From Mariprofundaceae bacterium (lineage in GTDB: Bacteria; Pseudomonadota; Zetaproteobacteria; Mariprofundales; Mariprofundaceae), in the NCBI GenBank assembly GCA_015663235.1, contig DQSL01000088.1:1-43798 (forward strand): 43,798 nt of DNA. Direction: 5' to 3'. Positions within the stretch are counted from its first letter, which is position 1; each line of letters begins with the position of its first letter. Below, piece after piece: positions 26,868-43,019 of the stretch. Position numbers and translations under genes: made by a program. A model generated the notes under the pieces. That model did no database searches. It saw only the letters and a list, made by a program, of their open reading frames with translations, and had not been told where the DNA came from.

Positions 26868-27824
26868 TTAATCCTTTTTGTTGAAGTGCGCCCAACGCTT
26901 AGGCCAAGGCGCACGACAATCTAGTTGTTTTTTCGATACAGGATGGGTAAAGCGCAGCCGCCAAGCGTGAAGTGCTAAACCTTTGCCTTGGAGAGCCTTA
27001 AAAAGTTTAACGTCCTCTTTTTCGGCATACTTAGGGTCGCCGAGAATGGCGTGACCTTCGTTTTGAAGCTGAACCCTTAGTTGGTGGGTGCGCCCACTGT
27101 GCGGTTGCAGCGCCACCAAGCTATATTTCCAATGATTGTGTTCGCGCAATAAAACTGTTTGTAAATCTGTGATGGCTTCTTGTCCATCTTCAGTATCAAT
27201 GACCATGCGTTCACCACTCTTGGTGATACCTTTGGCAAGTTTGGACTGCATACGTCCTGCATAAGGGTAGGGGTGACCCACGACCCATGCGAGATAGGTT
27301 TTGTGGGCATCGCGCTCGCGGAACTGTTCGGTAAGCTGCCTTAAACAGTGCAAATTTTTGGCAAGCAACAAACAACCACTGGTATCTCTATCCAAACGAT
27401 GCGCCAAGCGTAGCTCAGGCAAGTTTAGTTGAACTTTTAACCGCTCCACCAAACCAGCATCATGACCGCTGCCGCCGTGAACAACCAAACCTTCTTCTTT
27501 GTTGACCAGCAAAATGTCATTGTCTTCATAAATCACATCAAGGTTTCTTAGCGGTTTGAGTGTTGGTTCTTCTGCGTTATGATCTTCAGCGTTGGCACGT
27601 AAACTTACGGGCAAGAAAATGCTATCACCTTCTTGAACACGGTGTTCAGGTTTGACACGTTTACCATTCACGCGGACATTTTTCTTGCGAATTAAGCGCA
27701 AAATCAAGGTGCGTTTTTCTTGACCCAATAAACGGCAAAGTACGCGGTCTAGGCGGCTATCAGCCTCATTTTTGTCAATGATAAGGTGGGCTTGTGTATC
27801 GGGTTTATGTTCTAAACTTGCCAA
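26868..27824 (-). CDS. rluC: 23S rRNA pseudouridine synthase RluC-like
   Basis: A RluA-family pseudouridine synthase of 318 aa. An S4 RNA-binding domain (SRLDRVLCRLL...KKNVRVNGKRVKPEHRVQEGD, about residues 23-65) precedes the catalytic domain with AHRLDRDTSGCLLLAK (catalytic Asp in RLDRDTSG) and HSGRTHQLRVQL. RluC modifies U955, U2504 and U2580 in E. coli. Divergent placement next to rne is the same as in E. coli and favours RluC over RluD, a second copy of which lies at 30120. The start is TTG with GAGGA (27830-27834) five bases upstream; no ATG lies near. Confidence 0.88.
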   Translation of the reverse strand: MASLEHKPDTQAHLIIDKNEADSRLDRVLCRLLGQEKRTLILRLIRKKNVRVNGKRVKPEHRVQEGDSIFLPVSLRANAEDHNAEEPTLKPLRNLDVIYEDNDILLVNKEEGLVVHGGSGHDAGLVERLKVQLNLPELRLAHRLDRDTSGCLLLAKNLHCLRQLTEQFRERDAHKTYLAWVVGHPYPYAGRMQSKLAKGITKSGERMVIDTEDGQEAITDLQTVLLREHNHWKYSLVALQPHSGRTHQLRVQLQNEGHAILGDPKYAEKEDVKLFKALQGKGLALHAWRLRFTHPVSKKQLDCRAPWPKRWAHFNKKD

Positions 27825-28190
27825 AATCGTCCTCTTTTGTTCTAATGCCCCAATTGTACATGTGTTCCGCGTGTGTGGCGATGTTTGCGATTAAGTTCGC
27901 ATTTTGATCGAAAAACTTTGCAGGTTGATGCATTGAGAAGTTAATCCTTCATTTCAATCAATATTTCGGAGAGTGAGTCGTTTTTTTTGCAGGTCTCACC
28001 AAGCCAGTCTCGTGTTGAGCTATGAACAATAAAATAAAACAAAGCCGCCTGACGGTCTTAAATTGATTGCAATTTGATAGGTTTTTAGCATAAGTTAAAA
28101 AACATGCCAAAAGCCTTACCAATAATATAAATCCTTGTTTTTACTTGGGATTTTATGTGTATTTATGCCGTTAGCGGAAAGGAAACCGCT
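27825..28190 (+). other. Long rne leader and divergent promoter region
   Basis: This 366-bp gap between rluC and rne has no convincing ORF. It contains several potential hairpins: a GTGAG/CTCAC pair around an eight-base T-run (near 27974-28000), AAATTG-ATTG-CAATTT (28060-28075), a GTTTTT...AAAAAC pair just after, and the hairpin that presents the rne ribosome-binding site (28172-28191). RNase E leaders in enterobacteria are long and structured and mediate autoregulation by cleavage. A similar role here is an inference. Confidence 0.5.
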
Positions 28191-31870: not shown

Positions 31871-32422
31871 ATGTTGAAATCTATTTGTATCTTATACCTT
31901 TGTTGGTTTTCTGTTTTTTCTGCTTGGGCGGATGTGTCTTCTGCTGAGAATGGTATGCGAGTATATGTTAAAAATGATGTGGTATATTGTGATATTCAGG
32001 CATTTCAACAAGAAGCTTATATCCTTAAAGTGATTGGTTCAGGCTCTCCCATGACGGTGTTTTGGCAGTTTGATGTCGAGCAAGTGCGTGATTATTGGTT
32101 GAATAAACAGGTTGTTTCGGTGCGTTTGGGCAGACAAGTGATTCCCGACTTGGTGACACAGCGGTGGTTGATGCGCGACTTGAATGTAGGCATTGTCAAA
32201 CATACAACAGATGCTCAAGAAGCCATGCGCTTTCTTTCAGAAATGAATCAGGCGGCGGTGGTTGACGTTTCAGTGCTTGATGCTGATACGAATTATTTAT
32301 TGAAAACACGCTTCTTTTTGTACGAGGGTGAGGCCGAAGACAAGAGTTGGGTTCCATTGTTTAACAGTTCGGGTGTAGATATGGGAGACTTGCCATTGGA
32401 CTTGGGTGTGGTGAATGACTGA
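31871..32422 (+). CDS. DUF4390 family exported protein
   Basis: A 183-aa protein with a signal peptide (LKSICILYLCWFSVFSAWADV, cleavage near residue 20). A beta-rich domain follows, with YVKNDVVYCDIQAF, DYWLNKQVVSVRLGRQVIPD and a C-terminal VPLFNSSGVDMGDLPLDLG. Proteins of this kind (DUF4390) are repeatedly found directly before ntrY-ntrX in proteobacteria; none has a firm function. Its stop overlaps the ntrY start. It may modulate the periplasmic input of NtrY, but this is inference from position. Confidence 0.75.
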   Translation: MLKSICILYLCWFSVFSAWADVSSAENGMRVYVKNDVVYCDIQAFQQEAYILKVIGSGSPMTVFWQFDVEQVRDYWLNKQVVSVRLGRQVIPDLVTQRWLMRDLNVGIVKHTTDAQEAMRFLSEMNQAAVVDVSVLDADTNYLLKTRFFLYEGEAEDKSWVPLFNSSGVDMGDLPLDLGVVND

Positions 32423-34601
32423 AATACCAAAACCCCAGGATGAAAGATTAACTTACGTGCTGCGGTTTCTACCGTTTGCTGTGGTTATTTTATTGGCTGC
32501 GCTGATTTTTTATGTTTGGCCAAGTGAAGACCAATACGGTCCTGTATATTTAAATTGGATTAACATTGGACTGTTGCTGCTGGTGGCTTTTATTGCCTTT
32601 GTTTTTGGTATTCGTTCTTTTTCAACACGTCAGGAAAGTGCAGGGTTAAATTTAAGAACAAAACTTATAACGGTTATGGTGTTAATGGTGCTTTTGCCGT
32701 CGGCTATTTTACAAATCACTGCCAATCAGGTGATTACCAAAGGTTTGGACGTTTGGTTTGATGTTCGCGTAGATACATTGCTGGATAAAGCAATGAATCT
32801 TGCGCAAGGTTTTTATGCAGACCTTGAATCGGATATGGAGCTTTCACTTAAACAGGTTATTTCGGATGATAGCTTCCCAGATTTAGCGCCAACACCTTTA
32901 GGTAGCATGGTTTTAAATCAATACATGGAACAGTTGCTGACGAAACATGGTTGGGATAGGTTGGAGTTGTTTGATGCCTCAGAGCGTTTGGTGGCAACAG
33001 TGCAAGGTGTTCGGCCAGGTTCAAGTTTGGATAATTTGAAAACATTGCCCGTGTCTGATGCTGGGCGGTTAAGCATTGCCTTGGGCAGGTATACGATAGA
33101 CCATCATACTCATAAAGATAGTGAGTATGTAGTTGGTTATTTGCCACTGTTTTCTCAGCGCAGGCTGATTGGTCTTTTTCGTGCGGAAGTGGAGCTGCCC
33201 CCAGAAATTACAGCCAGTGCACGAAGTATTGAAGCAGATTATCGAAAATACCGAGAGCTGGATAGGCATAGACAAGGCATTCAACAAACATTTATGCATA
33301 CATTGATGATTGCGATGATATTGATTGTGTGTGTGGCGGGGATGTTGGCACTGGTGTTTGCGAGAAAGCTGACAGCGCCCGTGGAAGAGTTGGCATCCGC
33401 TTTAGAGCAAGTCAAAGCAGGTGACTTTGATGTTGTTGTGCCTACGAACAGCAGCGATGAGTTGGGTTCGTTGGCTGAATCATTTAACAGCATGATTGCC
33501 CGCTTGAAGTACAATATGGACACACTTACAGAGACACAAACTGAATTGACCAGCGCCTTGGTGAGCAGTCGCCAGCGCCAATATGTGTTGGAAAACTTGT
33601 TAGCGAAATTGCATAGTGGTGTGATTTTGTTGGATGCAACGGGTGAGATACGTTTGATGAATGACACATGCAAGACACTGTTAATGTTACCCAAGCATAA
33701 AGAAAATAAAGGTTCGATATATGACTTTTCTGAAGTTCACCTTAAACCTATTTTGGGCTTTTTTGAGACGTTGCAAACACAGGATTTACAAGATTTGCAA
33801 CATGAAATTGTGATTACCTATGGCTTGCAAACTGTTAAAATATTAGCGCGCGGCACACTTCTTGGTGGCCAACATGATGTTTTTTCGGGTTGGTTGCTGG
33901 TATTTGATGATATTACACAGCTTGCTGAAGCGCAAAAACATCGAGCATGGGCAGAGGTGGCGCAACGCTTAGCCCATGAAATTAAAAATCCACTTACCCC
34001 GATTAAACTATCTACAGAACGTGTGCGCAGAAGATTTCGTGATCAAGTGGATGATGTGAAGGTGTTTGATACCTGCACAGATGCGGTTATCAATCAAGTG
34101 GAGCGTTTGCAACGTTTGTTGGCAGACTTTTCTGATTTGGCAACATTGCCCAAGCCTGATATGGAAGTGGTTTCGATTGCTACGTTGTTGCAAGAGCTTA
34201 AAGAGTTGTATAGCCCTTATCATAATTTAACATTTGAAGGTATGCCCAAAGGACAGGTCTATTGCGACCCCGATCAAATTCGCCAAGTGTTGATTAATTT
34301 GATTGATAATGCTTTAGCAACCAAGGCTCATGTGCGTGTATATGTGGAAATTGTGGATGAACAAACGCGGTTTTTTGTCCAAGATGAAGGCTCTGGTATT
34401 GATGAAAATGCGAGAGAACATATATTTGCACCCTACTTTTCGACCAAAAAAGACGGAAGTGGCTTGGGTTTGGCTATTGCGCAAAGGATTACAGAGGAAC
34501 ATCATGGGCAACTGCAATTGTTGTCTGCATCAGCACCAACACGTTTTTGTATGTGGCTGCCCAATGTGGAAAACCATCGTTCTAAGGAGGGCGACGCATG
34601 A
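32415..34601 (+). CDS. ntrY: Sensor histidine kinase NtrY
   Basis: Membrane kinase of the NtrYX two-component system, linked to nitrogen and redox/respiratory regulation. The 728-aa protein has three N-terminal membrane helices (about 16-35, 48-66 and 83-103), an extracytoplasmic region to about 290, and a fourth helix (about 296-316). A HAMP domain (RKLTAPVEELASALEQVKAG) and a PAS-like domain (about 390-500) follow. Then come the HisKA site H521 in RLAHEIKNPLTPIKLSTERV and the ATPase with VLINLIDNAL and GSGLGLAIAQRI. Its stop overlaps the ntrX ATG. No feature of the sequence identifies the ligand. Confidence 0.93.
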   Translation: MTEIPKPQDERLTYVLRFLPFAVVILLAALIFYVWPSEDQYGPVYLNWINIGLLLLVAFIAFVFGIRSFSTRQESAGLNLRTKLITVMVLMVLLPSAILQITANQVITKGLDVWFDVRVDTLLDKAMNLAQGFYADLESDMELSLKQVISDDSFPDLAPTPLGSMVLNQYMEQLLTKHGWDRLELFDASERLVATVQGVRPGSSLDNLKTLPVSDAGRLSIALGRYTIDHHTHKDSEYVVGYLPLFSQRRLIGLFRAEVELPPEITASARSIEADYRKYRELDRHRQGIQQTFMHTLMIAMILIVCVAGMLALVFARKLTAPVEELASALEQVKAGDFDVVVPTNSSDELGSLAESFNSMIARLKYNMDTLTETQTELTSALVSSRQRQYVLENLLAKLHSGVILLDATGEIRLMNDTCKTLLMLPKHKENKGSIYDFSEVHLKPILGFFETLQTQDLQDLQHEIVITYGLQTVKILARGTLLGGQHDVFSGWLLVFDDITQLAEAQKHRAWAEVAQRLAHEIKNPLTPIKLSTERVRRRFRDQVDDVKVFDTCTDAVINQVERLQRLLADFSDLATLPKPDMEVVSIATLLQELKELYSPYHNLTFEGMPKGQVYCDPDQIRQVLINLIDNALATKAHVRVYVEIVDEQTRFFVQDEGSGIDENAREHIFAPYFSTKKDGSGLGLAIAQRITEEHHGQLQLLSASAPTRFCMWLPNVENHRSKEGDA

Positions 34602-35977
34602 CGATTCAAATCTTGATTGTTGATGATGAGCAGCCTATTCGTGAATCTTTAAGTGGTCTTTTTGAGGATGAAGGTTATCTGGTCAGCTCTTCTGCATCGG
34701 GTGAAGAAGCGGTGGCTCGTTTTCGTAAAAGTCCAACGGATTGTGTCTTTTTGGATATTTGGATGCCAGGCATTGATGGTTTGGAAACCATGGCAAGAAT
34801 CAAACAAATTAACCCTGATGTGCCGATTATTATGATGTCGGGCCATGCGACTATTGATACAGCAGTCAAAGCAACCAAGTTGGGTGCATTTGATTTTATT
34901 GAAAAGCCATTTTCGCTGGAAAAGCTGTTAATTACACTGCGAAATGCTGTGGAAAAAAGAAGGCTTGAATTGGAAAACTCAGACCTAAAAGTTGAAGCAA
35001 GTCATCATATCCCGCAACTGATTGGCAGCAGTAAACCTGTAAGCCTCGTCCGCAGACAACTGGATAAAATTAAGATGAGCAAACAACACGTGATACTGCA
35101 AGGGCAGCATGGGGTGGGTAAATCGATTGCGGCGCGTATCTTACATGAAGGTTCTGCTCAGTCGCAAGTTGGATTCGTGAGGTTCAAAGCCTCGGGGTTA
35201 GATGATAAAGCTATTGAAGCTGAATTGTTTGGTTATGAGAAAGGTGCTTTTGCGGGTGCTTTGCAAGCCAAAAGAGGGCGCTTGGAAGTTGCCCATGGCG
35301 GCACACTTTATATTGAAGAAATTGCTGATATTCCCTTGCCAACACAAGAAAAAATAATACAAGTGATGTTAGAGCACCGCTTGCAGCATATGGGCAATGC
35401 GAGTTATATTCCCTGCGATATTCGTTTGGTGCTAGGCACAAAGTATAGCAAAGAAGAATTGCTGCAAAGCGGAAAAATCCTTAAAGGTTTTTATTTACAA
35501 TTGCATGCCGCAGTGATTCAGTTGCCAAGTCTTCAGGAGCGCGAACAAGATATACCAGAGCTTTTGACAATGTTGATAGCCGAGCAGGTGGCACACTTGG
35601 GTGGCGAACCTGTGAAATTTTCTGATGAGGTGGTGCAATTGCTCCAAGCATATGCTTGGCCAGGTAATGTGCGTGAGTTACGAAACTATGTTGAGCGCTG
35701 CCACCTTTTATGTGCAGGAAAAGAGTTAACACTTGAAAACATGCTGCCTTTGGATGGGAACACCCAGCAGCTTTTATCCTTTTCAGCAGTACCTGACGAC
35801 ACCGTGTTGCAAGATGGGTTTCATGATGCACGGAAGCGGTTTGAGCGTAGTTACATTTTACATCACCTGGATAAAAATGAGTGGAATATTAGCAAAACAG
35901 CAGCGGATATTGGTATGGAACGTAGTCAACTACACCGTAAGATTAAATCGCATGATTTAACACCAGGTAATACATGA
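34598..35977 (+). CDS. ntrX: Response regulator NtrX with degenerate sigma54-activator domain
   Basis: Receiver domain with phospho-acceptor D53 (VFLDIWMP) and K104, then an AAA+ domain, then a Fis-type DNA-binding helix (TAADIGMERSQLHRKIKSHD, 434-453). The 459-aa size is normal. The AAA+ core departs from the sigma54-activator consensus in several places: Walker A is GQHGVGKS (169-176), the sigma54-contacting loop is GAFAGA (216-221) instead of GAFTGA, and Walker B reads TLYIEE instead of TLFLDE. The FRxDLYYRLN arginine region is GFYLQLHAA. It may be unable to activate sigma54 and could act as a plain DNA-binding regulator. AAGGAGGG precedes the ATG. Confidence 0.9.
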   Translation: MTIQILIVDDEQPIRESLSGLFEDEGYLVSSSASGEEAVARFRKSPTDCVFLDIWMPGIDGLETMARIKQINPDVPIIMMSGHATIDTAVKATKLGAFDFIEKPFSLEKLLITLRNAVEKRRLELENSDLKVEASHHIPQLIGSSKPVSLVRRQLDKIKMSKQHVILQGQHGVGKSIAARILHEGSAQSQVGFVRFKASGLDDKAIEAELFGYEKGAFAGALQAKRGRLEVAHGGTLYIEEIADIPLPTQEKIIQVMLEHRLQHMGNASYIPCDIRLVLGTKYSKEELLQSGKILKGFYLQLHAAVIQLPSLQEREQDIPELLTMLIAEQVAHLGGEPVKFSDEVVQLLQAYAWPGNVRELRNYVERCHLLCAGKELTLENMLPLDGNTQQLLSFSAVPDDTVLQDGFHDARKRFERSYILHHLDKNEWNISKTAADIGMERSQLHRKIKSHDLTPGNT

Positions 35978-37347
35978 ATATTCTAATTTTGGGTGCGGGA
36001 GAAGTAGGGTTTCATATTGCGCTTCGATTGGCGGCAGAAGGTCATGATGTTGCGGTTGTGGATAGTGATAAAGAACGTATTCAGCGCGTTTCCGACACTA
36101 TGGATGTGCGCACCGTGTTGGGCAATGCAGCGCACCCATCAGTTTTGGAAAGTGCTGGGGCAGAAAATGCTGATTTATTGATTGCAGCGACTGCCAGTGA
36201 TGAAACCAATATGCTTGCTTGTCAGGTTGCGCATTCGTTGTTCAAAGTTACTATGAAAATGGCACGAATTCGTGAGCCAGATTTTGCAACAAATGAGAAG
36301 TTATTTGGGCGGGATGAGCTGCCCATAGATTTGATTATTTCACCTGAGCATGAGGCTGCAAAAGCTATTGTGAAACGTTATCAAGTTGCTTCGGCGATGG
36401 ATGCGCAAGGTTTTGCCGATGATAAAGTGCAACTGTTGGGCATGATGATTCGCCCCAAAAGTTTACTCGCTGGCTTGGCTTTGGAAGAGATGGGTGAGGT
36501 GATGGGCGATAAACGTGTGTTTGTGGTTGCCTACGAACATAATCGCAAATGGAAAGTGCCGACACGGGATACTGTGTTGCTCGCAGGCGACAGCGTGTAT
36601 TTGGCTGTAAGTAGCGCACAAGTTGATGATGTTGTTGAAGCTTTGGAGGGATGCAAGCAGAATAAAAAAGTGCAACGCAATGTGATGCTGGTTGGCGGCG
36701 GGAATGTTGGTTTTGCTGTTGCGCAAGCGTTAGAAAAAATGGGTGTTTCCATCAAGATGATTGAGCATAATAAAGCGAGAGCGTCATGGATTGCAGACCA
36801 ATTGACTTCAACCGTGGTGTTGCATGGTGATGCCTTGGACAGAGATTTACTTGAAGAAGAAGCCATTTCAAAAATGGATGATTTTTTGGCGCTTACCAAT
36901 GATGATGAAACAAACATTCTAAGCAGTTTGATTGCGCGAAAATACAAAGTTCCTCACGTGGTAACGCTGGTAAATCGTGCAATATATTCGGATTTGGTTC
37001 GGGAAATTGGTTTGGATGTCATTGTTTCACCGCGTTTTACCACGGCGGCATCTATTCTTAGGCATGTGCGGAAAGGGCGCATTTTAGGCATGTCACCACT
37101 TGGTGATGGTAGCTTGGAAGTGATTGAAGCCGAAGCACTGGAAACCGCAGCGATTTTAGATGTCCCACTTCGGGATTTGAAGCTGCCTAAAGAAACAGTG
37201 ATTGGCGCGATTGTGCGTGGCGAAGACGTTATTATCCCTGATGGGGACACTGTTGTGCAACCCAATGACCATGTTGTTTTGGTATCCCGCGCTGAATCTA
37301 TTCGCGCCATTGAAGCTTTGTTTGAGGTTCGCCTTGAATTCTTTTGA
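35974..37347 (+). CDS. trkA: Potassium uptake regulatory protein TrkA
   Basis: Peripheral NAD(H)-binding gating subunit of the Trk potassium system, 457 aa. Two tandem RCK units are visible, each with a Rossmann nucleotide site: ILGAGEVGFHIALRLAAEGH (residues 4-23) and MLVGGGNVGFAVAQALEKMG (about 233-252). An RCK-C domain follows each. Its ATG overlaps the ntrX stop (ATGA) and trkH follows 13 bp later, so NtrYX and potassium uptake share one unit. Confidence 0.95.
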   Translation: MNILILGAGEVGFHIALRLAAEGHDVAVVDSDKERIQRVSDTMDVRTVLGNAAHPSVLESAGAENADLLIAATASDETNMLACQVAHSLFKVTMKMARIREPDFATNEKLFGRDELPIDLIISPEHEAAKAIVKRYQVASAMDAQGFADDKVQLLGMMIRPKSLLAGLALEEMGEVMGDKRVFVVAYEHNRKWKVPTRDTVLLAGDSVYLAVSSAQVDDVVEALEGCKQNKKVQRNVMLVGGGNVGFAVAQALEKMGVSIKMIEHNKARASWIADQLTSTVVLHGDALDRDLLEEEAISKMDDFLALTNDDETNILSSLIARKYKVPHVVTLVNRAIYSDLVREIGLDVIVSPRFTTAASILRHVRKGRILGMSPLGDGSLEVIEAEALETAAILDVPLRDLKLPKETVIGAIVRGEDVIIPDGDTVVQPNDHVVLVSRAESIRAIEALFEVRLEFF

Positions 37348-37360
37348 GATTGTTTGATAG

Positions 37361-38800
37361 ATGCACATCAAAGGCGTGGTATGGACATTAGCTATCCTGA
37401 TTATTCTGTTCTCCTTCGGTATGTTGGTGCCTGCAGTGGTTGCCTTGTATTATCAGTCGGGTTATGCAGATGATTTTGTTTTAGCCAGCTTATTGGTCGC
37501 CATGCTCGGTGTGTTGATGATGGCTTGGGCAGGCTCTGCGCCGAAACAGCTTAGCCATAAAGATGGTTTTCTAATCGTCGCTCTTGCTTGGGTTGTATTG
37601 TCGCTGCTCGGCTCGGCCCCCTTTTTAACCACAGGCGTTGCGCCTTCAGTGATTGATGCATTGTTTGAATCAACTTCAGGTTTAACCACGACAGGCGCGA
37701 CGATTTTAACAGGCTTGGACCATTTACCGCGCTCCATTTTATTTTGGCGTTCCATGCAAGAATGGTTGGGTGGCATGGGTATTATTGTATTGGCGGTTGC
37801 GGTGATGCCACTATTAGGTGTTGGTGGAATGCAGTTATTTCGCGCAGAAACGCCTGGTCCTGTTAAAGATAAATTAACATCAAGAGTCACTGAAACAGCC
37901 AAAGTACTATGGTTTATTTATTTGGGTATCACAGTCGTTACAGGTATTAGCCTGTGGCTTGCGGGCATGGGGTTGTTTGATGCAGTCAATCACGCCATGA
38001 CTACGGTAGCGATTGGTGGTTTCTCAACCCATGATGCGAGCATAGGTTATTATGATTCTATGTGGATTCGGGGGTTGATTGTTCTCTTTATGATACTTGC
38101 AGGCATTAACTTTACCCTGCATTTTGTGGCATTGCGCAAAGGGTTTTCCATAACAACTTACTTGCGTGATGAAGAGTTTATAACCTATATAAAGTGGTTA
38201 TTTTTCCTCATATTTGTGGTTGGTCTGGTCACTTTACTGTCGGGCAACGGAACGTGGGATGAAGTCATTTTTAATACGGTTGCAGTTGCCACCACCACGG
38301 GTTTTGCGGTGAGTGACTATGGTCTTTGGCCACAAGGTGCGATGATGTTACTTTTAATGGCGATGTTTGTTGGGGCGTGCGCAGGCTCAACGGGTGGTGG
38401 CATGAAGGTGGTGCGTGTGCTTTTGCTTTTCCGCCAAGGTATGCGGGAAGTGCGGCGGCTGATACATCCTCATGCTGTCATCCATGTGAAAATTGGTAAA
38501 CAAGGTGTTGAAGGTTCTGTGGTGCAAGCGCTTTGGGGATTCTTTGTGCTATATATGGTTTGTTTTGCGGTGATTGCCGTGTTGGTGGCTATGACAGGTG
38601 TTGATATGATGACAGCCATTTCAGCCGCCGCCGCAGCCATCACTAATACGGGGCCAGGTTTTGGTGCGGTTGGTCCAGCGTCAACGTATGCAGGTTTACC
38701 TGACATGGCAAAAATTGTGTTGATGTTTGGTATGATTTTAGGCCGTTTAGAAATATTTACATTTTTTGTGTTGTTGATTCCAGAATTTTGGAGAAAGTGA
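37361..38800 (+). CDS. trkH: Trk potassium channel/transporter subunit TrkH
   Basis: Integral membrane K+ translocating subunit, 479 aa, four M1-P-M2 repeats. Selectivity-filter-type loops can be seen: TSGLTTTGATIL, TVAIGGFSTHDASIG, VATTTGFAVSDYG and AITNTGPGFGAVG. Other conserved stretches are MQEWLGGMGIIVLAVAVMPL and GACAGSTGGGMKVVR. It partners TrkA, encoded just upstream. No terminator is evident after it. Confidence 0.95.
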   Translation: MHIKGVVWTLAILIILFSFGMLVPAVVALYYQSGYADDFVLASLLVAMLGVLMMAWAGSAPKQLSHKDGFLIVALAWVVLSLLGSAPFLTTGVAPSVIDALFESTSGLTTTGATILTGLDHLPRSILFWRSMQEWLGGMGIIVLAVAVMPLLGVGGMQLFRAETPGPVKDKLTSRVTETAKVLWFIYLGITVVTGISLWLAGMGLFDAVNHAMTTVAIGGFSTHDASIGYYDSMWIRGLIVLFMILAGINFTLHFVALRKGFSITTYLRDEEFITYIKWLFFLIFVVGLVTLLSGNGTWDEVIFNTVAVATTTGFAVSDYGLWPQGAMMLLLMAMFVGACAGSTGGGMKVVRVLLLFRQGMREVRRLIHPHAVIHVKIGKQGVEGSVVQALWGFFVLYMVCFAVIAVLVAMTGVDMMTAISAAAAAITNTGPGFGAVGPASTYAGLPDMAKIVLMFGMILGRLEIFTFFVLLIPEFWRK

Positions 38801-38906: not shown

Positions 38907-41501
38907 GTGGTTAAAGGTTTTTGGAAAGCAGATTGGTTTATAGGCGTAACATTGACGCTACTTTTCCTGTTTGCATACGCAAGTGGCTCGTCATTACTGC
39001 GAAGCCTAGAGTTTTATATGTACGATTTAGGCGTGGCAGCGAGTGTAGAGCCAGCAGGTGACCGTGTCGTTATTTTAGATATTGACGACACTTCTATTGA
39101 GCTTATAGGGCGTTGGCCGTGGCCTAGAAGTGTGATGGCAGACATGTTGGATAGCTTGAACCAGGCTGGTGTTCGACTTGTTGGCGTGGATGTTTTTTAC
39201 AGCGAAAAAGAAGCCAACAAAGGCACAGATTCCGCTGAGCAGCTTTTTAATATTTTACAAGAACAAGGCGAAGTATTGCTTGCTGAAGCCGAAGCTTTGG
39301 ATGCGAAGGGCGACCTCGCTGGAGCGGATAAAAAGTTTAATGAAGCAGACAAGAAGTTTGCTGAAGCCGATACGATTGCAGCAACTGCACTTGCCAATAA
39401 CGGCGATATGCGTTTGACGCAAGCGACTTTTGAGGCGGGCAATGTGTTTATGCCTATGTTTTACGAAGCTGGTGAACCTTTGGGTCGCCCCGATGCAAGC
39501 CTCCCTGACTATGTTGAACGTATGAGTATTAATAATATTGGAGATGTGGATGAGAATTCACCGCCGATTAGTGCTGTAAATATATCCTATCCTTTTGATG
39601 AGCTGGCGATGGTTTCTGCGGGCATGGGTTATTTGAATGTGTCGCCAAGTGAAGATGGTGTGTTGCGTTCAGAGCCTTTAATTGTTGAGTATTATGGTCA
39701 ATTTTTCCCCTCCATGTCGCTGGCCATGGTGGCGCAAGATTTGAATTTAACCATGGATGATATTCGTATTAACATCGGGTCTAGTGTTGAACTCGGCGCT
39801 TTGACAATTCCAACTGATAGAGAAATGAAAATTTCACCCAAGTTTTATACCAGTGGTTCAGGTAACATCAGTCAAGGTTTCACACATTTCCCTTTTTATG
39901 ATGTGCAATCGGGAAAAATTCCTGTCAGTCTTTTGAAAGATAAGATTGTTTTGATTGGCGTGACTGCGACGGGCATCGGTGCATCTTATTCGACACCTGT
40001 TTCCAGCATGGCGGCTGTTGATTACCATGCCAATGTTATTGAAAGTATTCTCAATGAAGGGTTTATCAGCGCACCAGAATGGGCAAACATGGCAGAGCTC
40101 GGGCTACTTATTTTTGTTGGTTTGTATTTAATACTCTTGCTGCCCCGCCTCAATGCCATGTTAGGCACGGTTGTGTCGATTGTCATGTTGTTGCTCATTT
40201 TAGGTGCAGGTTTTGTTTTGTTGGCAGACAGTGGATTATGGGTGCAAGTTGTGGGTGCGGCAGGTTTATTGCTTGTGGGGCATGTGGTTTTAACCAGTAA
40301 ACGTTTCTTTGCCAGCGAAGAAGATAGAGAAAAGATTTCATCAGAATCTGCTGAAACCAACAAGATGCTTGCGTTATCATTTCAAAGCCAAGGTATGTTG
40401 GATATGGCATTTGATAAATTTAGAAAGTGCCCGCCTAGAGATGATATATTGGATGCTTTGTATACGCTTGCTTTGGATTTTGAGCGCAAACGTCAATTCA
40501 ATAAAGCCTCGGCTGTGTATGAATACATCATGGAAACCAAACCCAAGTTTAAAGATGTAGAGCAGCGGATGCAGCGCACCAAAGATGCTGGCGAATCCAT
40601 GATTTTTGGTGGTGGCGGTGCTGGTAGTGGCATGGGTACGCTGATGATTACAGGTGGAGCAAAACCTACATTGGGTCGCTATGAAATTAGTAAAGAGCTT
40701 GGTAAAGGTGCAATGGGTACGGTTTATTTGGGTAAGGATCCTAAAATTAACCGTGAGGTAGCTATTAAAACCATGGCATTGTCCCAAGAGTTTGAAGGTG
40801 ATGAGCTTCAAGATGTGAAAGATAGATTTTTCCGTGAAGCTGAAACAGCAGGCATGTTGAATCATCCCAATATTGTGATTATGTATGATGCGGGTGAAGA
40901 TCACGACTTGGCATTTATTGCGATGGAATTTTTAGACGGTACAGATTTAGCACCTTACACCAAAAAAGGTAAATTATTGCCGCAAGCTGCGACGCTTAAA
41001 ATTGTCGGTAAAGTCGCTGAAGCACTGCATTATGCAAGCCAGCAGCATGTGGTGCACAGAGATATTAAACCTGCCAATATTATGTTGCTTAAAGATAAAA
41101 CTGTGAAGGTAACAGACTTTGGTATTGCCCGTGTAACGGCATCCAGTAAAACCAAAACAGGTGTGGTGCTAGGCACACCATCTTATATGTCACCAGAACA
41201 ATTATCGGGTAAACATGTGGATGGGCGTTCTGATATTTTCTCGCTTGGTGTGATGTTGTATGAAATGCTGGTGGGCGAGCGCCCATTTAAAGGTGACTCG
41301 ATGGCGACCTTATTGTTCCAGATTGCCAATGAACCACACGTAGATATTCGAGATATAGACCCTAACTTGCCAGAAGAAGTTAGTAAACTGATAGATGCAA
41401 TGTTGGTCAAAGATGCTGATAAGCGGCTACAAAATGGCGCGGCAGTGATTCGAGGGGTGATTGCAAGCTTGAAAGCAATGGCCGCGAAGGAAGGTAAATA
41501 A
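38907..41501 (+). CDS. CHASE2-domain serine/threonine protein kinase
   Basis: An 864-aa transmembrane kinase. One N-terminal helix (about 10-28) leads to an extracytoplasmic CHASE2 sensor (about 30-385; VVILDIDDTSIELIGRWPWP, then KDKIVLIGVTATGIGASYST). This is interrupted at about 110-171 by a charged Ala/Glu/Lys-rich insertion. Three helices follow (about 394-465), then a TPR-like helical region, a glycine-rich linker (about 568-588) and a C-terminal Hanks-type kinase: P-loop GKGAMGTVYLG (from about 598), VAIK lysine, HRDIKPANIM (about 716), VTDFGIAR (about 735) and GTPSYMSPEQ. The GTG start is supported by AGGATAGGG upstream. It overlaps the PP2C gene (TAATG). The stimulus is unknown. Confidence 0.93.
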   Translation: MVKGFWKADWFIGVTLTLLFLFAYASGSSLLRSLEFYMYDLGVAASVEPAGDRVVILDIDDTSIELIGRWPWPRSVMADMLDSLNQAGVRLVGVDVFYSEKEANKGTDSAEQLFNILQEQGEVLLAEAEALDAKGDLAGADKKFNEADKKFAEADTIAATALANNGDMRLTQATFEAGNVFMPMFYEAGEPLGRPDASLPDYVERMSINNIGDVDENSPPISAVNISYPFDELAMVSAGMGYLNVSPSEDGVLRSEPLIVEYYGQFFPSMSLAMVAQDLNLTMDDIRINIGSSVELGALTIPTDREMKISPKFYTSGSGNISQGFTHFPFYDVQSGKIPVSLLKDKIVLIGVTATGIGASYSTPVSSMAAVDYHANVIESILNEGFISAPEWANMAELGLLIFVGLYLILLLPRLNAMLGTVVSIVMLLLILGAGFVLLADSGLWVQVVGAAGLLLVGHVVLTSKRFFASEEDREKISSESAETNKMLALSFQSQGMLDMAFDKFRKCPPRDDILDALYTLALDFERKRQFNKASAVYEYIMETKPKFKDVEQRMQRTKDAGESMIFGGGGAGSGMGTLMITGGAKPTLGRYEISKELGKGAMGTVYLGKDPKINREVAIKTMALSQEFEGDELQDVKDRFFREAETAGMLNHPNIVIMYDAGEDHDLAFIAMEFLDGTDLAPYTKKGKLLPQAATLKIVGKVAEALHYASQQHVVHRDIKPANIMLLKDKTVKVTDFGIARVTASSKTKTGVVLGTPSYMSPEQLSGKHVDGRSDIFSLGVMLYEMLVGERPFKGDSMATLLFQIANEPHVDIRDIDPNLPEEVSKLIDAMLVKDADKRLQNGAAVIRGVIASLKAMAAKEGK

Positions 41502-42313
41502 TGAGTGCATTAGAAATGATTGCTGTCACAGATGTTGGGCGAAAACGCGATCACAATGAAGATTGTGTTGGTGTTGATGAGTCTCATGGTATTGCAGTAT
41601 TGGCTGATGGCATGGGTGGACATAATGCTGGTGAAGTCGCCAGTGCGATGGCGGTTGATATGGTGATGCGCCTTATTAAAGATGGGTTAAGCCATATTGG
41701 CTTGGGTGAGATGGATGAAGATACAGGGTTTTCTAAAGAAGCCGTCTTAGCGCGAAGTTCAGCAGTGACAACAAATAATGCCATTATTGAGGCGGCGAAA
41801 GCAAACCCTGAATGTTCAGGTATGGGAACTACGCTTGTCACGGCAGTGTTTTATGGGGATAGGGTTGCAGTGGCACATGTTGGTGATTCACGCATGTATT
41901 TATTGCGCAATGAATACTTATCACATGTCACCGAAGACCATTCATTGATTCAAGAACAAGTGCGAAGAGGACTATTAACCGCAGAAGATGCACGCAATTC
42001 ATCTATCAAAAATTTAGTGACCCGCGCATTGGGTGTTGAAAAAGATGTTGAAGCTGATGTGGTTGAAGATATTGCACTTGTGGGTGATATTTATATGATG
42101 TGTTCAGATGGTTTGACGGATGTGGTGCCTGATGAGGCTGTTCGCTTGACGATGATTGAACACAGCAAAAACTTTAAAGTGTGCGCGCAGGCACTGATTG
42201 ACTTGGCAAATGATGCTGGAGGACCTGATAATATATCGGTTATTTTGATACGAGTGAACGGCGCACTTTCGCGTAAGAAAGGCTTCTTCTCGCGTTTATT
42301 TGGAGGTAAATAG
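41501..42313 (+). CDS. PP2C-family (PPM) serine/threonine phosphatase
   Basis: A 270-aa soluble metal-dependent phosphatase. The family's metal-binding motifs are complete: VTDVGRKRDHNEDCVG, VLADGMGGHNAGEVAS, GMGTTLVTAV, VAHVGDSRMYLLR, MMCSDGLTDVVPD and GGPDNISVIL. It ends with a basic LSRKKGFFSRLFGGK segment. Its start overlaps the CHASE2 kinase stop and it is followed by the FHA protein, forming a writer-eraser-reader phospho-threonine set. It most likely dephosphorylates the kinase and its targets. Confidence 0.95.
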   Translation: MSALEMIAVTDVGRKRDHNEDCVGVDESHGIAVLADGMGGHNAGEVASAMAVDMVMRLIKDGLSHIGLGEMDEDTGFSKEAVLARSSAVTTNNAIIEAAKANPECSGMGTTLVTAVFYGDRVAVAHVGDSRMYLLRNEYLSHVTEDHSLIQEQVRRGLLTAEDARNSSIKNLVTRALGVEKDVEADVVEDIALVGDIYMMCSDGLTDVVPDEAVRLTMIEHSKNFKVCAQALIDLANDAGGPDNISVILIRVNGALSRKKGFFSRLFGGK

Positions 42314-42314
42314 A

Positions 42315-43019
42315 ATGAGTTGTAAGCTTGTTTTAAAGTTCAAAGACACAGTGATTTCAGAGTATGACCTGAATCAAGAAGAAACGACTATTGGTCGCAA
42401 AGAAGAAAATGAGATTCATGTTGATAATTTGGCTGTAAGTAGCCGCCATGCAAGGATTCTAAAAATTGGTAATAAAGTTATTTTAGAAGACTTGGGTAGC
42501 ACCAATGGTACGCAAGTGAATGATAGGGATGTTACAAAACATGTCCTGAATCATGGCGATATTATCACAGTGGGTAAACATACCCTGACATTTATTTGTG
42601 CAAACGCACCTGCTGCACAGCAAAGTGAAGAAAGTGACATGGATAAAACCATGATTATTAGCTCGGCTGACCGAGAAGAAATGATGGGTAAAGCTGGTGC
42701 TCCGCCAGCATCTGAAATGATGTTGGGAGGTGTTCAATATTTATCAGGGCCTTTGATGGGCAAAAGCATGGAACTCAAAGCTTCTTTGACCAGTATGGGT
42801 AAAGGTAGCAATTGTAGAATTAAAGTGAAGGGTTTACTGGTGGGCAAACAAGCCGCTGTGTTTACACGTAGACCAACAGGTTACCATCTGACGCATTTGG
42901 AAGGCATGAGTAAAACTAAAGTGAATGGTGAATCAATTTCTGACCACCCTAGAGTATTAAAAGATGGTGATATTATTGAGTTATCAGACATTAAAATGCA
43001 ATTCTTTATTAAGAAGTAG
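42315..43019 (+). CDS. Tandem FHA-domain protein (second FHA degenerate)
   Basis: A 234-aa protein. FHA1 (about 20-95) is complete, with GRKEENEIHV, SSRHARI (S43, R44, H45) and the LGSTNGTQVND loop (N64 G65), so it should bind phosphothreonine. A linker (100-140) contains DMDKTMII with T112 as a possible phosphosite. The C-terminal region (about 145-234) folds like another FHA, but the arginine and SRxH positions read GKGSNCRI and GKQA and the loop is GMSKTKVNG, so phospho-binding is probably lost. ATG 42315 has GGAGG (42301-42305) nine bases upstream; the TTG at 42300 is rejected. It is the reader of the kinase/PP2C cassette. Confidence 0.9.
   Translation: MSCKLVLKFKDTVISEYDLNQEETTIGRKEENEIHVDNLAVSSRHARILKIGNKVILEDLGSTNGTQVNDRDVTKHVLNHGDIITVGKHTLTFICANAPAAQQSEESDMDKTMIISSADREEMMGKAGAPPASEMMLGGVQYLSGPLMGKSMELKASLTSMGKGSNCRIKVKGLLVGKQAAVFTRRPTGYHLTHLEGMSKTKVNGESISDHPRVLKDGDIIELSDIKMQFFIKK

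Follow-up and report, generated by a model that had tools for sequence, protein, structure and literature searches.

The window analyzed here is a stretch of 43,798 nucleotides from a Mariprofundaceae bacterium (contig DQSL01000088.1 of assembly GCA_015663235.1), and the gene under study is the open reading frame (ORF) at positions 34598-35977 of its forward strand, which encodes a 459-amino-acid NtrX-like response regulator. The protein consists of a receiver, an AAA+ domain, a lid, and a Fis-type helix-turn-helix (HTH), matching the Pfam domains PF00072, PF00158, PF25601, and PF02954. Its closest named relatives come from metagenome-assembled genomes (MAGs) of Ghiorsea sp., with identities of 83-88%, which assigns the window DNA to Ghiorsea, an iron oxidizer of the Zetaproteobacteria. 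An earlier note on this DNA had proposed that the AAA+ domain has lost the hallmarks of a sigma54 activator, or bacterial enhancer-binding protein (bEBP), and that the regulator may act without sigma54, through sigma70, as a repressor or a DNA-bending protein. The features on which this question turns are the following.

34598-35977, forward strand: NtrX-like regulator, 459 amino acids; best NCBIfam model NF051870
34598-34957, forward strand: receiver, taken in the rate analysis as residues 1-120, carrying D53 (34754-34756) and K103 (PF00072, 2.6e-33)
35009-35527, forward strand: AAA+ core (residues 138-310), which evolves fast in Ghiorsea (rate analysis)
35102-35125, forward strand: Walker A motif GQHGVGKS (residues 169-176), whose Lys all 16 Ghiorsea retain (alignment)
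35186-35188, forward strand: K197, which takes the place of the switch asparagine (N64 in PspF; alignment with E. coli NtrC and PspF)
35243-35260, forward strand: L1 loop GAFAGA, residues 216-221; GAFTGA in activators (alignment)
35312-35320, forward strand: Walker B Ile-Glu-Glu, residues 239-241, with E240 in place of the Mg-binding Asp (alignment)
35480-35500, forward strand: arginine-finger region, residues 295-301, with both Arg gone (L295, Q301) (alignment)
35810-35962, forward strand: Fis-type HTH region (residues 405-455; PF02954, 7.9e-09), in which 37 of the 51 columns do not vary among 15 Ghiorsea

We use the name NtrX-like, and treat the protein as an orthologue by synteny rather than as an NCBIfam NtrX equivalog, given that its top model, NF051870 (NtrX), scored 402.4 bits (runner-up, 294.5) and thus fell short of the equivalog cut-off of 600 bits. 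Three other zeta/delta relatives likewise lie under this cut-off (465, 515, and 422 bits), and two alphaproteobacterial-type NtrX proteins exceed it (720 and 703 bits). The AAA+ domain scored 138 bits with PF00158, compared to 234-247 bits for four other activators of the same genome.

Residues were mapped by aligning the window NtrX with E. coli NtrC and PspF. The Walker B L-D-E is replaced by I239-E240-E241, which places E240 at PspF D107 and E241 at PspF E108, and both arginine-finger positions are changed, with L295 at PspF R162 and Q301 at PspF R168; no intact Arg substitutes for R162 within the aligned stretch. The L1 loop is of full length rather than deleted, its change being confined to the Thr position, where A219 aligns with PspF T86. 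Walker A (GxxxxGK) is intact, K197, a residue on which the earlier note is silent, occupies the position of PspF N64, and the receiver carries D53, K103, and S81, the first two of which are found in all aligned rows except the L004 paralogue. The earlier note had placed GAFAGA and IEE at exactly these residues and had read the same Walker A, GQHGVGKS, and its observations that the arginine region is missing and that the receiver Asp and the Fis-type helix are intact were likewise borne out. D107, R162, and R227 (PspF numbering, in which the GAFTGA Thr is T86) are functional residues in bEBPs. The functional importance of E108, the asparagine, R168, and GAFTGA is described in passages of PMC7175178.

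Orthologues were found in 75 of the 78 genomes of the order, the other three (G026, G027, and G029) giving only other bEBPs. The ntrX frame is open with no internal stop in all 16 Ghiorsea genomes, two of the genes being cut by contig ends. Across these 16 proteins, Glu stands at the D107 position in 15 and Asp in 1, the R162 position is Leu in 12, Ile in 2, Ala in 1, and Arg in 1, and the R168 position is Gln in 8, Lys in 5, and Arg in 3 (lost in 13). Val (8), Ala (6), Leu (1), and Thr (1) occupy the T86 position, and the Walker A Lys and the sensor II Arg are kept in 16/16 and 15/16, respectively. Sequencing error, assembly error, or chance as the source of the substitutions is ruled out by their recurrence over the 16 genomes. 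The 55 orthologues from other Mariprofundaceae, by comparison, retain D107 in 53, R162 in 55, R168 in 53, and N64 in 55. Two side observations concern the same alignment. The Walker A motif ends in GKS in Ghiorsea NtrX, mostly in GKA in other Mariprofundaceae NtrX (e.g., L026-L038), and in GKE in sibling activators. C273 (35414-35416), which immediately precedes the sensor I strand (PCDVR/ACDVR), is invariant in all 16 Ghiorsea proteins and is missing from nearly all other NtrX aligned.

The timing of the losses was read from a tree of 45 rows with five trait columns left out. The orthologue L025 (genome G001), which carries VDE and LREDFYYRLN together with GAFAGA, branched as the sister of the 15 remaining Ghiorsea proteins, with branch support of 100/100 for the 16 rows and 98/91 for the 15 rows. 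Given that this sister keeps both, the Walker B Asp and the first finger were lost once, on the stem of the 15. The second finger changed later, to Lys in five rows and to Gln in eight, with Arg remaining in L018 and L019. Partial loss of catalytic residues recurs in four orthologues from other families of the order and in L028, L123, and L213 inside it. Only one of the four, L125, holds D107, R162, and R168 together, but it has lost L1 and N64. Among other zetaproteobacterial NtrX proteins, L028, L123, L124, L126, and L213 show partial losses in which single catalytic residues are gone, apparently through independent events.

The earlier note had counted the GAFTGA change among its reasons for sigma54 independence, and this part of its argument is weaker than it supposed. 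The T86 position of the 55 other Mariprofundaceae orthologues is Pro in 28, Thr in 12, Ser in 10, and Ala in 5, so that the Thr is absent in 43, nearly all of which have their catalytic residues intact. Treating the GAFTGA change as the principal argument was therefore rejected; it is a weak sign because of these 43 relatives, because the Ghiorsea orthologue L012 combines GAFTGA with a broken ATPase, and because alphaproteobacterial NtrX lacks the loop. A non-zetaproteobacterial set (86 loci, 85 distinct ORFs, being orthologues or near relatives and mostly alphaproteobacterial), which is biased given that it was chosen by similarity, kept D107, R162, and R168 in 84/85 ORFs; GAFTGA or GSFTGA occurs in 10 ORFs, and 74 are without it and hold all three residues. 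The loss of the switch asparagine was also dropped as evidence. K197 is not diagnostic because His stands at that position in 15 of the 30 control activators, which are intact in other respects, and in the non-zetaproteobacterial set 9/85 rows have a residue other than Asn there. What stood of the proposal is that the protein is very probably not a sigma54 activator, a view carried above all by the loss of catalytic residues in 15/16 Ghiorsea.

A missing sigma54, which the earlier note had suggested looking for, does not explain the loss of the motor: rpoN (PF04552) is present in all 16 Ghiorsea genomes, and its absence was rejected as the cause. The window genome itself encodes RpoN along with four or more intact bEBPs. 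A control search of these genomes with a sibling activator returned 30 loci, among which L002 and L003 of the window genome itself were recovered a second time, and T86, D107, R162, and R168 are all kept in 30/30. These results bear on whether NtrX could still work as a sigma54 activator, with Glu serving for Asp, other Arg or Lys residues serving as fingers, and an L1 loop with Ala, Val, or Leu engaging sigma54. The GAF and L1 helix are invariant, Walker A and sensor II are kept, five genomes have Lys at R168, and passages of PMC12421884 report that HTH mutants of Caulobacter NtrC, which lacks GAFTGA, raise sigma54 gene expression. We nevertheless consider continued activation improbable, given that R162 has become Leu, Ile, or Ala in 15/16 Ghiorsea with no intact replacement Arg aligned, that the sibling activators keep every one of these residues, and that constraint on the core is relaxed. 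Most GAFTGA mutants, moreover, are unable to activate, and the arginine fingers contact the gamma-phosphate in trans, as stated in parts of PMC7175178.

The relaxation of the core was seen in a rate analysis on a fixed topology, in which the tree length within 15 Ghiorsea was divided by that within 18 other Mariprofundaceae. The AAA+ core had a ratio of 0.76, as against 0.34 in the lid, 0.19 in the receiver, and 0.17 in the HTH; over 20 column bootstraps the core ranged from 0.63 to 0.84, the receiver from 0.11 to 0.30, and the HTH from 0.07 to 0.24, so that the core and receiver ranges are separate. The core thus evolves about four times faster relative to the receiver and HTH in Ghiorsea than in the rest of the family. 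Mean pairwise distances followed the same pattern, with core versus receiver values of 0.469 versus 0.109 in Ghiorsea NtrX and 0.342 versus 0.204 in the 55 other family proteins. Sibling bEBP families in Ghiorsea reverse the order (0.076 versus 0.172 over 13 rows in one and 0.192 versus 0.277 over 14 rows in a second). Over the 15 Ghiorsea, 88/120 receiver and 37/51 HTH columns are invariant, placing these among the most conserved domains, and the invariant core positions are Walker A, F211-G212, E214, GAF 216-218, and A221-L222. The ratio of nonsynonymous to synonymous substitution (dN/dS) between near relatives was 0.06-0.13 in the AAA+ domain as against 0.004-0.03 in the receiver, most dS values being close to saturation. 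Constraint is relaxed in the AAA+ core only, yet the core is still under selection. Of 83 conserved AAA+ columns, 16 are lost, and these include 4 of 7 chosen catalytic positions (hypergeometric P = 0.023), a modest enrichment for positions that we chose ourselves. Judged from its sequence, the window NtrX is very probably unable to work as a sigma54 activator, because the Walker B Asp and the arginine fingers are lost in 15/16 Ghiorsea and fast evolution is confined to the core.

An AlphaFold model built from an 18-row alignment had a mean predicted local distance difference test (pLDDT) score of 85.5 and a predicted template modeling (pTM) score of 0.56, the low pTM leaving the placement of the domains unsure. 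Over the AAA+ domain, the model superimposed on FleQ (6jdi) at 1.4 A across 246 columns, with a template modeling (TM) score of 0.93 by target length, and the AAA+ fold of the activator clade is thus predicted to be retained. The model also matched Brucella NtrX along its whole length, and VpsR (7v2b) was a further fold match. Structures of Brucella NtrX, which lacks the L1 loop, contain ATP (5m7n) and ADP (5m7p), indicating that an NtrX without GAFTGA is able to bind nucleotide; ATP binding by the window NtrX may likewise persist, given its predicted fold and retained Walker A.

Two further accounts build on ATP binding that may be retained. NtrX could be a poison or brake subunit that has kept Walker A, oligomer surfaces, and GAF without catalysis and that mixes with intact NtrC-type activators and damps sigma54 transcription: hydrolysis and the trans fingers would be lost and ATP binding kept, as expected of a dominant-negative subunit, and the genome supplies rpoN together with intact bEBPs with which it could mix. 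We regard this as very unlikely, since bEBPs usually self-assemble and a fast-changing core surface is ill-suited to a conserved partner. Somewhat less doubtful, though still improbable, is that NtrX became a pseudo-ATPase by a reverse route, in which catalysis was lost first while L1 was kept and sigma54 was still in use, leaving a subunit that binds but does not hydrolyze ATP and that acts alone on sigma70 promoters or as a brake in activator rings.

The neighborhood of ntrX supplies a candidate kinase partner, and its genes are as follows.

31871-32422, forward strand: DUF4390 protein, upstream of ntrY, in the same order in relatives (neighborhood comparison)
32415-34601, forward strand: NtrY-like sensor kinase, whose gene overlaps ntrX at an ATGA; a plain string match indicates intact H, N, G1, F, and G2 boxes
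35974-37347, forward strand: TrkA, whose start overlaps the ntrX stop (neighborhood comparison)
37361-38800, forward strand: TrkH (neighborhood comparison)

The order DUF4390-ntrY-ntrX-trkA-trkH is found in the window and in those relatives whose locus extends that far. Among the 16 Ghiorsea loci, trkA lies directly 3' of ntrX in 15 (the exception being genome G006), ntrY lies 5' of it in 14 (the contigs of L017 and L024 end inside or just before ntrX), and the complete ntrY-ntrX-trkA order is seen in 13, G006 having ntrY without trkA. In that genome (L040, 1814-6766), ntrY is spread over three frames, and transposase-like minus-strand ORFs stand right after ntrX in the place of trkA; G006 also holds the only GAFTGA among Ghiorsea NtrX. 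The locus may be an assembly error. Beyond trkH, genes for a CHASE2-Ser/Thr kinase, a PP2C phosphatase, and an FHA protein follow in a row at 38907-43019.

The G006 locus and the fast-evolving core raise the question of whether NtrX is a decaying, pseudogene-like regulator that is losing its function in Ghiorsea, with the AAA+ core the first part to drift, and the erosion that arose independently elsewhere in the order, outside the family, points the same way. This explanation seems unlikely to us. The frame is open in every Ghiorsea genome, the receiver and HTH are kept too tightly for a dead gene, the Walker A Lys and nearly every sensor II Arg persist, the boxes of the window ntrY are intact, and the G006 case may be an artifact of assembly.

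We instead favor, with a probability of roughly 0.7, a lineage-specific NtrX that is no longer a motor and serves as a phosphorylation-switched DNA binder at sigma70-type promoters, without sigma54. The window NtrX is probably an ordinary phosphorylation-controlled DNA-binding protein. The kinase encoded by the adjacent ntrY would phosphorylate D53, and the phosphorylated receiver would control dimerization or DNA binding via the conserved Fis-type HTH, allowing NtrX to activate or repress ordinary sigma70-type promoters. The AAA+ domain may bind ATP as a structural or allosteric ligand without hydrolyzing it, and neither ATP hydrolysis in a ring nor remodeling of the sigma54 polymerase would be expected. 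The regulon could include its own operon or potassium and envelope genes.

Several points weigh against this reading. Glu is a conservative replacement for the Walker B Asp and may leave some residual hydrolysis. L012 retains GAFTGA alongside its broken ATPase, and the L1 loop would still do something, given that GAF and most of the L1 helix are invariant in Ghiorsea. With most dS values close to saturation, the AAA+ dN/dS can indicate purifying selection only roughly. Scans of the window with published NtrX motifs were uninformative and revealed neither a target site nor a sigma70 promoter: CAAN2-5TTG is too common, with 153 matches, none of them within 27824-28155, and a further motif scan gave 25 matches.

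The family forms a graded natural series, from GAFTGA with catalysis, through GAF[P/S/A]GA with catalysis, to loss of catalysis, and rpoN remains in the genus that lost it. This series lets one ask what role the AAA+ domain plays in a response regulator after hydrolysis is lost and with which step the departure from sigma54 begins. A further lesson is that annotating such genes as "sigma-54-dependent" is wrong. The retrieved passages of the openly licensed PMC literature describe no zetaproteobacterial NtrX and no natural loss of the Walker B Asp and arginine fingers in NtrX, and those of PMC7240162 and PMC5892882 contain nothing relevant to a degenerate or sigma54-independent NtrX.

The direct orthologues in other Mariprofundaceae (e.g., L027 and L029) lie in the same operon and, unlike those of Ghiorsea, keep the catalytic residues. 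E. coli TyrR, which has no receiver domain, differs from Ghiorsea NtrX in that its L1 is deleted, with N64, D107, E108, R162, and R168 all present in our alignment. Lacking the sigma54 loop, this bEBP homologue works with sigma70, as passages of PMC6375630 describe. The bEBP-like VpsR of Vibrio cholerae also acts with sigma70 polymerase (in parts of PMC9303241), although it depends on c-di-GMP, unlike Ghiorsea NtrX. That bEBPs lacking GAFTGA can act at sigma70 promoters has a published precedent in section 19 of PMC10274813, where Rhodobacter capsulatus NtrC is reported to need ATP binding rather than hydrolysis and Caulobacter NtrC to require its Walker motifs. Both resemble Ghiorsea NtrX in lacking GAFTGA and keeping the phosphorylation site but differ in being NtrC proteins with an L1 deletion. 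For S. meliloti NtrX, passages of PMC9223101 report that D53 phosphorylation is required for binding to CAAN2-5TTG and that some targets are repressed. The closest counterpart is Brucella abortus NtrX (5m7n, 5m7o, and 5m7p), the best sequence match (3.9e-90) and best fold match, which shares the receiver-AAA+-Fis architecture, the ntrY neighbor, a very similar DNA-binding helix, and the lack of GAFTGA. The bEBP relatives known to have left sigma54, namely alphaproteobacterial NtrX and NtrC and TyrR, lost L1 and kept the ATPase. Alphaproteobacterial NtrX, with L1 shortened or deleted and the Walker B LDE and both arginine fingers retained, took the opposite route to Ghiorsea NtrX, in which the length of L1 is kept and the catalytic residues are gone.

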